The notes under the pieces: generated by a model
Databases searched by the model: none
The model's input: the letters and a program-made list of their open reading frames with translations, nothing else
What the model was told of the DNA's origin: nothing
Source of the DNA: a virus
Strand: one strand, 5' to 3'
DNA: 21,538 nucleotides
Virus record (IMG/VR): IMGVR_UViG_3300046011_000144
Location: 1-21,538 of that record
Translations under genes and position numbers: made by a program
In this document: positions 11,150 through 21,274 of the stretch, piece by piece
Layout: each line of letters opens with the position of its first letter
Numbering within the stretch: position 1 is the stretch's first letter

Positions 11150-11968
11150 TTACTTTTTGTAGGTTTCAAGCACGAGGGCGCGACCCTGTGCGGTTTTGAT
11201 GACAGCAGCATACGCTTTGTGGAAGTCTTTCTCTTTCTTCTCGTCCTGATAAGCCTTCACGATATCGTTTAGCTTCTCAGTCGGAGATTTCAGATCATTA
11301 GCTGCATCAGTTTTGCCGACTTCTTCATAGATGCCTGCAAAGGCAGCGTCAGCGGAACGAAGGAGTGCAAGCAGTTCTTCGTCTTGCCCAATCGACTTCA
11401 ACAGTTTACCACGCTCATCAGCAGTTCCCTTGAAATTGGGGAGAACCTCATCGGCGCGTTTACGGAGTTCTTCGACTTCGAGAGCCTTTTGAACATCTTC
11501 TAGTTTTTTCAGGATCGGTGCGGGGATAGCCGACTTGGCAATCATCTCACCTTCAACTTCGATCATCTCTTCGGCAGGCTTTGCCTTCTCGACAGCAGCT
11601 ACTTCAAGATCAGCGACTTTGCCTTTGAGAGTTTCGATCTCTTCCAGAAGCATCTTGTTGACTTCTTCAAGTTCAAGGGCTTCATTCTTCCAAGACTTAC
11701 GAGCAGGCTTCTTTTCGCCCATCATGTCGTCTTCCATCATTTCTTCTTCGTCGTCTTCCATGTCGTCCATCTTGTCGGACTTCATTTCTTCCATGTAACC
11801 CTTTTCGGTTTCAGTCTCTTCAACCGTGTCGAGTTTTTCGACTTCTTCGTTTTCCATGTGTTCCCCTTCCGGGCTGCGCTTGAACAGTGCGACCTTAGCG
11901 AGTGGGTCATCGCCCATATCGACCAAGGAAACCTCTTCAAGTTCCAAGTTTACGAGTTCGGTGGGCAT
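11150..11968 (-). CDS. Scaffold-like prohead core protein
   Basis: A 272-residue, highly charged protein. Residues 4-31 (ELVNLELEEVSLVDMGDDPL then KVALFKR) match the strand that normally follows, or ends, phage prohead protease domains ('EVSLVD.gAnp.A....Kr'). Residues 55-88 are an extreme Met/Asp/Glu tract. A coiled coil (about 95-128) follows, and the rest is helical with a Lys-rich C-terminal end (ALVLETYKK). This composition and its place between protease and capsid genes fit a scaffold that is degraded by the protease during maturation. Its ATG overlaps the HNH gene stop as TAATG, with AAGGAG 8 bases upstream. The start motif suggests an ancestral link to the protease gene, now separated from it by the HNH gene. 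Confidence 0.8.
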   Translation of the reverse strand: MPTELVNLELEEVSLVDMGDDPLAKVALFKRSPEGEHMENEEVEKLDTVEETETEKGYMEEMKSDKMDDMEDDEEEMMEDDMMGEKKPARKSWKNEALELEEVNKMLLEEIETLKGKVADLEVAAVEKAKPAEEMIEVEGEMIAKSAIPAPILKKLEDVQKALEVEELRKRADEVLPNFKGTADERGKLLKSIGQDEELLALLRSADAAFAGIYEEVGKTDAANDLKSPTEKLNDIVKAYQDEKKEKDFHKAYAAVIKTAQGRALVLETYKK

Positions 11969-12465
11969 TACACCATCTCCTTCAAAGTTAATCTGTTACC
12001 CTTAGACATGTTCAAGTCCGCAGGAAGAATTTGTAAGTTCCACGGGACATGTAAACCACAAACGTCTTTGCCATTTAGAGGGACTATGTGGTCAACTTGA
12101 TAATTTTCACCCGTGATTGCCCTCAAATCCCTAGCAAGCCAATAGATTTGTTCAATCTCTTTGCTGTAGCCAGACAGAGTTGCGCGTCTTTGTTTTGACC
12201 TTCTGGCAGAATTATAAGACAAAACTTTGTCGTAGTTAGATGCAATCCAATTTTTGGAGGCTGCTAACTTTTTGGGACGATTATTTTTCGCCCAAGTTTT
12301 GTTATACTCTCTCATTTCGTCTTTTCTGTTGGCTCTTTGGAGCTTTTGTGAAACAGAGTCACAAACTTTGCAATGTGACCTAACCCCAAACTTACCCTGT
12401 TTACTTTTACTAAACTGGTAAATTGGTTTTTCGACAGAACATTTATTGCAAGTTTTAGTCTGCAT
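11968..12465 (-). CDS. HNH endonuclease with zinc-ribbon N-terminus
   Basis: A 165-residue protein from ATG 12465; the longer frame to 12549 only adds sequence inside the protease gene. Cys 6, 9, 32 and 35 (CNKC...CKVC) form a zinc-ribbon-like site, followed by a Lys/Arg-rich helical linker. The HNH core is at 123-157: QVDHIVPLNGKDVCGLHV, then WNLQILPADLN..KGNR. D125-H126 is the catalytic pair, N143 and the N152/K155/N157 helix complete the finger. It is likely a free-standing homing-type nuclease; a packaging-associated HNH is the alternative. It overlaps the protease stop by 11 bases (ATGCAGACTAA) and the scaffold ATG by one base (TAATG), so it fits exactly between them. Its A/T-richer, Lys-rich coding style differs from the neighbours, suggesting transfer. 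Confidence 0.93.
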   Translation of the reverse strand: MQTKTCNKCSVEKPIYQFSKSKQGKFGVRSHCKVCDSVSQKLQRANRKDEMREYNKTWAKNNRPKKLAASKNWIASNYDKVLSYNSARRSKQRRATLSGYSKEIEQIYWLARDLRAITGENYQVDHIVPLNGKDVCGLHVPWNLQILPADLNMSKGNRLTLKEMV

Positions 12466-13582
12466 TTTCACTAAACTCTTTAAGAGCGCGGCCACCAATA
12501 CTAAACGCAGCCAGTTTACCGCTTTTAACATCTTGCCACACTTGGTCATCGTAGACCTTGATAGCGACTAGCCAGCCTTCGCGGTCAGACTGGATACCCA
12601 ATGCCTTGGCAATCTCGTTAGTCAAGGGCATGGAATGGACAACTTCCCCGATCTTACCACCACTGTGCATAGCCTTGGCGGTTCTCATGGAAAGCATAAA
12701 ATTGGTTGCAGCCTTTGCGATCTGGTCAGGGCGAATAAACTCTTCGCTGTGATCTAGGCTGATTTCACCGTTGACAGTTGAGACGTAAGCCCAACCAAAG
12801 GCAAGACGCTCTTCATCAAGTTGCTTGACGATCTGACCTTCAACGGAAACTTTGGTCAACTCTGAGACAGAGGTTCCGCTTTCCCACATGCGACAAGACC
12901 AGTAACGGGCTGAGGTTTTATCGGTGGCCGTGTCACAAGAATGGCGGGAACGGAAGTTAGCACGAGCATCTGGATCGTCCCTTCGGATTTCCATGTTTGG
13001 GTCGCCAAAGGTGACTTTCTTTACTTTGTCACCATCTTTGACGTAGACACCAAACTTCTTGGTGGAGCCAGCCGGGAGACGGAAAGGCTTGTCAAGTTCG
13101 ACTTCTCGACCCTGATGCACAGCTTTTTCCACAGTCTTAGAGGCCATCGGATGATTTTCTGGCAACAGGTCTGTGTCATGCTTCCCAGAGCGGAACTTGC
13201 CATTTCGGATAGCCCGAAGGAAGTTGTTGACACGGGCCATAGCCCACTGTTCAGGGGAAGTGACGTTAGGGCGGACACTCTGAGGGTTAGTGCGATAAGC
13301 ACCGACACCACGATCATAAACTTGGCGAAGGGTTTCAGCAGTAACTCTGCCTTTGTCGCCATACTTTTCGTTGTGTTCTGTGGCCTTCTGACGAAGTGTG
13401 TCCATATTGACTTTTTCGACAGCCTGTTTAGCCTGTGACCACGCACCAGCAAAAGCACGGCTTTCAGTCATACCGTCTTCGGTCATCATAGAGTTGAAGA
13501 CGTTACGGAAGACTGATTGCTGATGTGCAGACAGTTTACCACGAACTGCTTTCGGGAGGTCTTCATTGCTACTGTACGGCAT
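12455..13582 (-). CDS. Prohead protease, ChaB domain plus XkdF-type serine protease
   Basis: A 375-residue multidomain protein. Residues 1-55 form a ChaB-like domain (MPYSSNEDLPKAVRGKLSAHQ). Residues 75-145 carry a phage-typical VYDRGVGAYRTNPQSVRPNV...WAMARVNNFL segment. Residues 174-233 carry KKFGVYVKDG...KVTFGDPNMEIRRDDP..ANFRSRHSC..........ARYWSCRMW, a module common in phage protease polyproteins. Residues 258-368 are XkdF-like (LAFGWAYV....GEISLDHSEEFI....GWLVAIKV.D..VW.DVKSGKLAAFSIGGRA), with H306 and S361 as candidate catalytic residues. It should cleave scaffold and capsid precursors in the prohead. GAGG lies 4-5 bases before the ATG, and the start overlaps the previous stop by 14 bases. 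The protein ends soon after the FSIGG motif, where related proteins often continue with EVSLVD, which here is in a separate gene. Confidence 0.88.
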   Translation of the reverse strand: MPYSSNEDLPKAVRGKLSAHQQSVFRNVFNSMMTEDGMTESRAFAGAWSQAKQAVEKVNMDTLRQKATEHNEKYGDKGRVTAETLRQVYDRGVGAYRTNPQSVRPNVTSPEQWAMARVNNFLRAIRNGKFRSGKHDTDLLPENHPMASKTVEKAVHQGREVELDKPFRLPAGSTKKFGVYVKDGDKVKKVTFGDPNMEIRRDDPDARANFRSRHSCDTATDKTSARYWSCRMWESGTSVSELTKVSVEGQIVKQLDEERLAFGWAYVSTVNGEISLDHSEEFIRPDQIAKAATNFMLSMRTAKAMHSGGKIGEVVHSMPLTNEIAKALGIQSDREGWLVAIKVYDDQVWQDVKSGKLAAFSIGGRALKEFSENAD

Positions 13583-16190: not shown

Positions 16191-18119
16191 TTAGCTAATA
16201 CGGTAAACAGTATAAGTGTTGGTTGCAGTCTTACGAACACGGAACATGCCACTTGTAGCCGCTGTAACGGCCATAGAACCTGTGAGGGTGAGGCCAGCAG
16301 CAGTACCAAGAGTTGCCGTCCCAGAACCCGTATTGATGACGGAAAAATCAAAGGACATATCAACTGGGAAAGTAGCAGGCACACCACCTTCAATCAGAGT
16401 TCCTGTCGGCATAGTTAGCGTGGCTAGAGCGCCCGTGTACTGGATGATCCCCGTCAGCAATTCTGCAATGGTCAGCGTTGCTGCTGCGGCCTTTGAGGTC
16501 TGTGCAGGCTGGTTCTTGTAGACCACACCAGTGGTGACGGTAGCGCCAGTGACGTGGAGCGGGGTAATGGGTGTGGTGTTGCCAATCCCCACGTTGCCCG
16601 TAGAGGTGATGTGCATCCGGTTTGTCGCATTGGTATAAAACGCAAGTGGAAATGCGCCCTGAGAAGCAACAAACGGCACATTCCCGTTAAGGCTCCCGAG
16701 CAACAAGTCAGAATCTACACCCGGCCCGAGTCTCGCAGCCACATTTGTTTGTGAGGAAACCGTTGTGCTGCCCAACACGCGGAGACGCACATCAGGGCTG
16801 CTTGTTCCGATGCCAACAAAGCCCGAAGAGTCGATCCGCATACGTTCACTAGTGGAAGACGCTCCATCAGCAGTCGTGCTGAACACCAGACGACCCGGCA
16901 TGTCGTTGGTGCCGGGGGTGCCATCAACAGCGGCTTCAATTGTTGCAGCAATTATAGGCGCAGTGCCGTCTGTCCCGTAGAATCTCATAACCCCCAGTTG
17001 ACGATTATTTGCAACCGCAGTGTTATCCCCAAAAGTCGTGCCGCCGCCGGTGACAAAACTGAAAATAGGTCTTGCAGCGTTGTAGGCATAAAATGTCTGA
17101 GCAAAAGCAGAGCTTGGGTTGGCGTCAACAGCAACAGCAGGGGCGGTGATGCCAGACCAAGCGGCATTATGCAAAACTTTTACCTTGCCGTCAGCCCCAA
17201 CCACAAAAGGCGAAGCATCTGGGCTAGTGCTATCCTCAACCACAAGAGCATCCCCGGCACCCGTCTGGGTGATTCGGACAGCAGGTTCAGTAGCGGAGGA
17301 CGAGAGAACATCGAGCCTTGCGGCAGGAGAACTCACCCCAATTCCTACGTTGCCCGCACCAGTGATCCTCATGCGCTCTGTGTTAGTCGTGCCAAAAATA
17401 AGTGGAGTAGAACCGTTCGTGCCGATAGTAGCATTAGTGCAATTCAAGAACCGCAGTGAGCCGAGGTTTGCCCTTGAGATACCAAACTGGGTTCCTGTCG
17501 AGTCAATCGGCCAATACTCAAGCGCGGTGGCCCTGAAATTATCAGAATAGTTGACTTCGGTCACAAGCACATTGGCGATAACGGTAGAAGACCGTGCGGC
17601 TGCTTGTAGACTGGCAGCGGGAGATGTTGTGCTAATCCCGACTAGGCCATCAGAGGTAATCCTCATGCGCTCAGCCCCACTCGTCTCCACCGTCATGGTG
17701 TCATTAGCAGGGAAACGAATGGCGGTGTTAGTGTCGCCAGAATGGACGATCTTGTCAATTACCGTAACATCTCCATTTGGGCCAATACGGAGTTGTTCAA
17801 CACCACCCAATGTGATTGCTAGGGTGTCTATAGTGGGTCTATAAATACCCGTGTTAGTGTCACTTGCGAAACTGATTGAAGGTAGGCTGGCAGACCCATT
17901 AGGAAAGAGTCCGTTACCTGACCCAACAATAGCAGAAGCTGTAGCTGCACTGGCTGCGGCAGCAACTGCACTAGCTGCGGCTGCGGAAGCATTAGCCTCT
18001 GTTTCTTGAACAACAACAGCTAGAGAAGCAGAATCTGTTGTACCAACACTAACAGTGATTGGATTTCTCGGTTGCATAGCCGAGATAAGATTGTTCGTGT
18101 TTGTGATCTCAAGGCTCAT
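16191..18119 (-). CDS. Fibre/appendage protein with ERMRI-type repeats
   Basis: A 642-residue, Ser/Thr/Gly/Ala-rich protein. The N-terminal region is followed by an Ala-rich probable coiled coil (about 38-65). At least five degenerate copies of a 'sERMRI.s.G.VGIGt.sP..rL.V' repeat lie at about 106-120, 148-170, 246-270, 423-448 and 498-520. This repeat is widespread in phage tail fibre and appendage shafts as a trimeric beta-helix-like unit. The C-terminus (GMFRVRKTATNTYTVYRIS) shows no self-cleaving chaperone signature. The start overlaps the upstream gene as ATGA. The location between terL and portal is unusual for a fibre, so it could be a head appendage as well as a tail fibre. Host receptor and attachment site cannot be read from sequence. 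Confidence 0.85.
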   Translation of the reverse strand: MSLEITNTNNLISAMQPRNPITVSVGTTDSASLAVVVQETEANASAAAASAVAAAASAATASAIVGSGNGLFPNGSASLPSISFASDTNTGIYRPTIDTLAITLGGVEQLRIGPNGDVTVIDKIVHSGDTNTAIRFPANDTMTVETSGAERMRITSDGLVGISTTSPAASLQAAARSSTVIANVLVTEVNYSDNFRATALEYWPIDSTGTQFGISRANLGSLRFLNCTNATIGTNGSTPLIFGTTNTERMRITGAGNVGIGVSSPAARLDVLSSSATEPAVRITQTGAGDALVVEDSTSPDASPFVVGADGKVKVLHNAAWSGITAPAVAVDANPSSAFAQTFYAYNAARPIFSFVTGGGTTFGDNTAVANNRQLGVMRFYGTDGTAPIIAATIEAAVDGTPGTNDMPGRLVFSTTADGASSTSERMRIDSSGFVGIGTSSPDVRLRVLGSTTVSSQTNVAARLGPGVDSDLLLGSLNGNVPFVASQGAFPLAFYTNATNRMHITSTGNVGIGNTTPITPLHVTGATVTTGVVYKNQPAQTSKAAAATLTIAELLTGIIQYTGALATLTMPTGTLIEGGVPATFPVDMSFDFSVINTGSGTATLGTAAGLTLTGSMAVTAATSGMFRVRKTATNTYTVYRIS

Positions 18120-20557: not shown

Positions 20558-21070
20558 TCAGTTTCTGAACATTTCAGGCATTGTTGCATCCCATTCGTGC
20601 AGAATCTTCCCAGATTGCAACCAACGATCCCTCACTTCTATAGCCTCTTGTTTGCTATAGGTACGGTAGATAGCCTGTTCCGGCCCTCTCCTAACGACAA
20701 ACAATCTGTTCATCGAACCTACATAGATATGCTCTTCCTCAGTCTCATAGTACCGATTGACAGGATCATTGGCATCTTTCATGTACACTTGGTTGTATGG
20801 AACAACAACAAGGTTATCAGCTTTGAGATTGTAGATGTCCTTGTCCTTGTAGATAACCCTATCCTTGTCATCAATGTAGTCATTCTTGACAAACATGACA
20901 GCTACTCTAGCTAACCAGAACTTGACAATCTCTTTAGTTCCATCAACCCTATGAGAAAAGTCTCTCCCAATGAGGGTCTTGCCACTCCTCTTAGAAGTAA
21001 ACTCACCCTTCTCAGGGTCATAGTCCAACAAGTCCTTGATCTGGTCAATTGTGTAGCCTTTGTAGTCCAT
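20558..21070 (-). CDS. HNH-fold-like protein with altered catalytic position, possible regulator
   Basis: A 170-residue protein from ATG 21070, with AAGAGGA 9 bases upstream; ATG 21103 lacks a site. Residues 13-60 (DLLDYDPEKGEFTSKRSGKT...FWLARVAVMF) follow the N-terminal layout of phage HNH proteins (YdPetGef..k..G......HRLAw.f). Residues 71-94 (RVIYKDKDIYNLKADNLVVVPYNQ) align by eye with 'VnHiDGDk.NNr.eNL..vt..eN'. N81 and N86 are kept, but the His is Tyr 74. The C-terminal part is unassigned: RTYSKQEAIEVRDRWLQSG resembles an AP2-like or helical DNA-contact end of some HNH proteins. If the alignment is right, the nuclease is inactive, so DNA binding or regulation is possible. It sits between two related promoters. 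It could instead be a degraded homing nuclease. Confidence 0.72.
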   Translation of the reverse strand: MDYKGYTIDQIKDLLDYDPEKGEFTSKRSGKTLIGRDFSHRVDGTKEIVKFWLARVAVMFVKNDYIDDKDRVIYKDKDIYNLKADNLVVVPYNQVYMKDANDPVNRYYETEEEHIYVGSMNRLFVVRRGPEQAIYRTYSKQEAIEVRDRWLQSGKILHEWDATMPEMFRN

Positions 21071-21274
21071 ATCTCTAAGTCCTCTTGTTTGGTTGTTACC
21101 CATTACATAGGAACTCAGGTAGGATATGTCAATATAGGATACTATGATAAGTAAGGTTATCTCTATCTACCTCCGATATTACCTTATCTAGTGATCCTTA
21201 CACTCCTTCTATGGGAGATTCTGTACCATCTATCTTGTTAGTATATATTCAGGGGCGGGGGAAGGACTTTTTAG

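Follow-up and report, generated by a model that had tools for sequence, protein, structure and literature searches.

The window, the whole 21,538-nucleotide stretch of viral DNA analysed here, very probably carries an old, two-piece and translationally coupled prohead protease whose last segment is borne on the scaffold and which was later invaded by an HNH endonuclease gene. It is practically certain that the split is older than the HNH insertion, because HNH-less relatives and cultured phages already have two ORFs at this place.

Organization of the Locus

The window is a tailed-phage late module read on the minus strand. The gene order is terminase large subunit, portal, a 245-aa protein, protease, HNH gene and scaffold-like ORF, followed by a small head protein, the major head protein and then the tail genes. 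A 642-aa tail-fibre-like repeat protein (phrog_9942; 16191-18119, minus strand) is encoded between terminase and portal, an unusual position for a tail fibre, and a second, weak HNH-like ORF (phrog_99, E 7.9e-5; 20558-21103, minus strand) lies upstream of the terminase genes. The ORF coordinates (Table 1) confirm that, as the original prediction had stated, the HNH ORF sits between the protease and scaffold-like ORFs and overlaps the former by 11 bp and the latter by 1 bp. The protease end and the HNH start share ATGCAGACTAA (12465-12455), while the HNH stop and the scaffold-like start are joined in TAATG, with base 11968 common to both; overlapping stop and start signals are thus kept at both junctions, again as predicted. 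The downstream ORF is a probable scaffold, judging from its acidic composition and the gene order.

Table 1. Positions of the three overlapping ORFs and of the features at the insertion site.
Feature	Position	Strand	Description
Prohead protease ORF	12455..13582	-	375 aa; C-terminal end AFSIGGRALKEFSENAD
HNH ORF	11968..12465	-	165 aa
Scaffold-like acidic ORF	11150..11968	-	272 aa; N-terminal start MPTELVNLELEEVSLVD
Inserted segment, 488 bp	11988..12475	-	blastn blocks of the empty allele L003 against the window break here
Empty-allele remnant CTTTGAAGGAGATGGTGTAATG	11966..11987	-	identical to empty alleles
FSIGGRA codons	12485..12505	-	synonymously recoded in HNH+ alleles

The protease ORF matches Pfam PF14550 (Peptidase_S78_2/XkdF) over residues 250-367 (E 1.1e-14), and its score of 54.9 bits against a gathering cut-off of 24 places it in the XkdF family; ChaB and DUF5824 segments lie upstream of this domain. 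Comparison with PHROG gave a head maturation protease, and H306, S361 and G363, at the His and Ser motif positions, are invariant in alignment A1. The Peptidase_S78_2 part stops just past the FSIGGRA serine motif. The window protease is not a single-chain domain with a C-terminal EVSLVD-type segment, as this segment is encoded by the next ORF. Neither the protease nor a Streptomyces phage relative nor the HNH protein had a useful sequence relative in the PDB. The N-terminal region of the protease varies in length (~280 vs ~375 aa) in otherwise very similar phages (L002, the window locus, vs L014, L028 and L033), apparently because some have the DUF5824-containing segment and others lack it. 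In PHROG the protease scores best against phrog_1530, which is annotated as DNA methyltransferase, and the same label stands on the XkdF proteases of the RDJL Phi 1, 9NA, G1 and Lactococcus 28201 records. It looks like a propagated misannotation, and the analysis corrects this PHROG 1530 label for XkdF proteases.

Age of the Split

An IMG/VR scan with the protease yielded 80 relatives, 78 of which could be scored, and all 78 loci were split just past FSIGG[RK]A. The HNH gene occupied 5 of them; the other 73 were empty, and each of these encoded two ORFs at the boundary, with no fused locus among them. Counted from the base after the protease stop, the downstream start lay at -14 (39 loci), -1 (25), -8 (7) or 0 (2). 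In L007 and L059 the TAA is immediately followed by ATG and the two ORFs are in frame. The same split was present in Roseobacter phage CRP-6 (gp55/gp54), with a TAATG junction and no HNH gene. More distant cultured phages split without an HNH gene were Enterobacter Mulvp2, Roseobacter RDJL Phi 1 and Rhizobium RHph_TM3_3_10, and further two Vibrio phages, Pseudomonas RSP, Klebsiella Carvaje, Salmonella 9NA and Pseudomonas G1.

Protease and scaffold-like ORF do share a reading frame in the window, as had been noted (13582-11968 = 1614 = 3 x 538), but this is no sign of a fusion. Offsets of 0, 1 and 2 all occur between protease and downstream ORF in the HNH-less loci, so the relation seen in the window is coincidental, and frame conservation was rejected as the trace of a former fusion. 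What the loci keep is a stop and a start that touch or overlap, and not the frame, which fits translational coupling and makes frameshifting unlikely.

The Downstream N-Terminus and the Protease Domain

By sequence comparison, the first ~35 residues of the scaffold-like ORF (LELEEVSLVD...) are the C-terminal part of the S78 protease domain that the first ORF lacks. This segment shows strong conservation within the family, with the consensus LELEEVSLVDxxxxxxAxVALFKR. Five separate downstream N-termini (CRP-6, RHph_TM3_3_10, L008, L015 and L055) matched positions 126-162 of the 165 in Pfam PF04586 (Peptidase_S78), at E values of 0.004-0.06 that were each below the curated cut-off; the window's own N-terminal segment alone gave no match to Pfam S78. 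When L059 was read through its TAA as one chain, the S78 match spanned the boundary (63-158/165, E 4.5e-4). Built from trans segments, an HMM found single-chain Streptomyces phage proteases, in which it matched at ~140-165, directly after the serine motif (E 5e-7, compared with 1.8 for the best shuffled decoy). The S78 and HMM matches uphold the earlier proposal that EVSLVD is the strand found after the serine motif where the prohead protease is a single chain.

The joined L059 chain was also modelled with AlphaFold2. The model was of moderate confidence (pLDDT 66.7, pTM 0.64), and the trans segment formed a strand (137-147) followed by a short helix. XkdF and prohead proteases made up most of the 47 matches of this model at E<=0.001 in the viral structure library BFVD; the single-chain psiM2 protein aligned over 179 columns and the closest sequence relatives over ~125 columns. 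A PDB fold search with the joined L059 model and the L212 model described below gave no match at E<=0.001, the best sensible match of the joined chain being a herpesvirus protease (E 0.16).

The segment was found in three linkages. In psiM2, PhiCh1 and the Streptomyces phages it follows the serine motif in the same chain (cis C-terminal), and in the window's group it stands in trans on the next ORF. Lactococcus phage 28201 and ~20 related loci examined have (F/Y)VS(L/Y)VDKAANKKQF ahead of the core, and in this type the N-terminal segment is followed by a scaffold-like region. psiM2 ORF12 and the S78/S78_2 (XkdF) protease of Streptomyces phage Francob have the same His and Ser motifs as the window and a C-terminal EVSLVDxPAN segment, but are single chains where the window has two polypeptides. 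The Lactococcus 28201-type XkdF protein likewise has the same core and a (F/Y)VSxVDKAANKKQF segment, but here the segment precedes the core in cis. The next ORF of Vibrio phage MS01 and Rhodobacter phage RcMenchie has an (I/V)SVVDRGAN motif. XkdF proteases with an N-terminal VSxVDxAAN-type segment were also seen at L170, L175, L178 and L180-L224.

For L212, which has the segment at its N-terminus, the AlphaFold2 model was confident (pLDDT 81.5, pTM 0.80); the segment formed a strand (5-19) and then a helix, a local structure shared with the joined L059 model. The XkdF proteases with an N-terminal segment are apparently circularly permuted relative to those of psiM2, PhiCh1 and the Streptomyces phages. 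As the trans-segment HMM matched the permuted segments weakly (best E 0.018), we regard this as a strong lead and not as proof; it rests on motif, position and predicted strand, and not on a significant sequence score.

The HNH Gene and Its Insertion

The HNH protein matched PHROG 1035 (E 1.8e-27). It has two CxxC pairs and a DH...N...N motif, all intact, and the conserved residues are C6, C9, C32, C35, D125-H126, N143, N152 and N157. The DHHRN class (F-CphI, Endo VII motif) was considered and rejected: DHHRN homing endonucleases have a DHDH motif and then CX2C (PMC6083498), and the window protein has DHIVP...WNLQ...NxxK instead.

In blastn, the window and the empty allele L003 aligned in three blocks at 94-97%, two of them meeting at the insert, which is flanked by an 11-bp imperfect repeat (CTCTTAAAGAG / CTTTGAAGGAG). 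The 5' copy re-encodes the protease LKE and provides AAAGAG ahead of the HNH ATG, and the 3' copy, once the tail of the protease gene, now encodes the HNH C-terminus LKEMV and stop. The remnant of the empty allele carries the original, Shine-Dalgarno-like AAGGAG and the TAATG coupling site for the scaffold-like ORF. L014 has the same insert arrangement with an HNH gene 96% identical to that of the window, the HNH ORF of L032 likewise runs into KEMV and stop, and in L064 the HNH stop lies inside the remnant, which is intact. From the arrangement at these loci and the window, it follows that the element kept both couplings and altered only the last protease residues.

No group I intron or other RNA family scored above threshold anywhere in the window (Rfam), and the insert is almost wholly ORF; an intron-encoded endonuclease was therefore ruled out, in agreement with the fitted, intron-free insertion first proposed. 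The further claim that the ORF fills the insert holds for nearly all of it, but the LKEMV and stop of the HNH ORF are the original protease 3' end. A fractured gene with a split intein was rejected as well, since 8-10 residues after FSIGGRA and 4-10 before the conserved segment leave no room for it.

Judged from the alleles, the HNH gene is a recent and free-standing homing-type insertion: there are near-identical empty alleles, two HNH genes of ~50% identity occupy one site, and the adjacent codons are recoded. L003 and L033, both empty, align with the window on either flank of the insert. Directly upstream of the insert, 7/24 bases differ between the window and L003, all of them synonymous, compared with 6/306 further upstream (p=5.6e-6). 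The seven changes also separate the window allele, at the same positions, from L004, L005, L027, L028 and L033. Clustering of flank differences was tested on 330 bp, the whole-gene version being misleading for alleles with an upstream indel. L032 is 91-94% identical to the window in its backbone, yet its HNH gene at the same site has ~50% identity, and its 90-bp flank is divergent (26/90 vs 9/240, p=1e-9). The motif serine codon was AGT in all five HNH+ loci vs 3/28 HNH-less loci of the same group. The FSIGGRA codons presumably lie in the homing site or adjoin it.

Such a pattern is the trace expected if homing recurred with co-conversion or if the target was recoded; the recoding beside the insert could instead reflect drift within a donor lineage. 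Genes of the same HNH family were present elsewhere in related contigs (L008:2441-2947, L014:2535-2966, L064:2310-2864 and L074:8492-8974). In all likelihood the HNH gene is a homing-type mobile gene, and cleavage and homing by its protein are predicted with much the same confidence. The homing gene fitted into a late operon that the original prediction described thus agrees with the empty alleles, the divergent HNH genes at one site and the recoded codons.

Proposed Sequence of Events and Alternatives

We propose two events. In the first and old one, the prohead protease of this phage lineage came to be encoded in two translationally coupled ORFs, the first for the core that contains the His and Ser motifs, the second for the terminal strand-helix segment, which continues into the acidic scaffold-like protein. 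As the likeliest mechanism, the two polypeptides made in this coupled way would reassemble, the scaffold-borne segment completing the protease fold, and reassembly would also dock the protease on the scaffold. In the second and recent event, a free-standing HNH gene would have entered the existing boundary beside the catalytic-serine codons. It would have swapped the last two protease residues for a short new tail and taken the original tail (LKEMV-TAATG) as its own C-terminus, so that both coupling signals were kept.

The original prediction saw the HNH gene itself as the cause of the split of a protease-scaffold fusion, as with MobE and nrdA in phage Aeh1. The overlapping ORFs on both sides would suit this, and comparable cases are known (PMC2988022), but it is hardly credible any longer: every one of the 73 HNH-less relatives that could be scored is already split, as are CRP-6 and nine further phage records from distant groups, and so are the empty alleles L003 and L033 despite their match to both sides of the insert. 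HNH-less homologues split at the same boundary were what that prediction had named as evidence against itself, and 73/73 scorable loci are of this kind. Programmed frameshifting or readthrough, which would join the ORFs into a single protease-scaffold chain in HNH-less phages, draws on the overlap of the ORFs and on L007 and L059, where they are in frame across the TAA. We consider it unlikely, since stop and start stay adjacent through all three frames and offsets of -14, -8, -1 and 0, as fits termination-reinitiation, and since in HNH+ phages the joining would have to skip the HNH gene. The intact HNH gene, well integrated in the operon, might also be a resident phage gene, vertically inherited and not mobile; this is very unlikely given its presence in just 5/78 scorable loci, the near-identical but empty alleles L003 and L033, the ~50%-identity HNH gene of L032 at the same site within a 91-94% backbone and beside a divergent flank (26/90 vs 9/240), and the related HNH genes at other places in related contigs.

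An old split followed by HNH invasion leaves the question of reassembly, and complementation of the protease in trans appears rather probable to us. It is itself inferred, and the window's segment alone lacks a Pfam match, both of which favour a reading without reassembly, in which the product of the first ORF either works by itself or has no activity, and the EVSLVD segment carried by the scaffold is left over from an earlier state or serves as a capsid-binding tag. We find that reading somewhat doubtful, as the segment shows strong conservation and, in related proteases, is found again in cis at one end or the other, which suggests that the segment is needed and its linkage is not. In the related giant-phage protease gp245 (H77, S153, D178), the third catalytic residue lies 25 residues past the serine (PMC5694885). 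This distance falls inside the trans segment here, so by analogy two chains may jointly form the active site. Activation of the protease that depends on the scaffold is a more tentative idea than complementation.

Comparison With Known Systems

In phage Aeh1 (MobE in nrdA) and in T4 (MobA at gene 39/60), a free-standing HNH gene likewise lies between pieces of an essential protein and its ORF overlaps, as in the window. There the endonuclease insertion is held responsible for the split (PMC2988022), whereas here the split is older and widespread without the HNH gene. Closer in this respect is the split DNA polymerase 43A/43B of Aeromonas phage 25 with its seg gene, where a homing gene may have invaded an already split gene (PMC2988022); it concerns another protein and a GIY-YIG endonuclease, and in the window's case the empty split alleles reveal which event came first. 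T4 homing genes overlap upstream ORFs, by 11 bp at segF/gene 56 (PMC2988022), the same overlap as here but with a GIY-YIG type and no split gene.

With the HNH insertion, a new case is added to a kind already known. In the open-access literature we found no description of a split prohead protease or of the permutation, and an earlier one may exist outside it. In the HNH case a homing gene exploits a gene boundary that was already present within what is functionally one enzyme, and the empty alleles put the events in order. Beyond it, we tentatively suggest that a wide range of tailed phages have a natural split protease, in which the scaffold that it digests carries the final strand, perhaps including the third active-site residue, and which is completed only by docking; on this equally tentative reading, the segment moved among C-terminus, N-terminus and another protein during evolution. 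With its cis C-terminal, cis N-terminal and trans linkages, the segment offers a natural experiment in protein topology. Should it act in trans, phages would have a way to hold the head protease inactive before assembly: its last piece would sit on the scaffold and make a built-in split-protein switch, testable in cultured phages.
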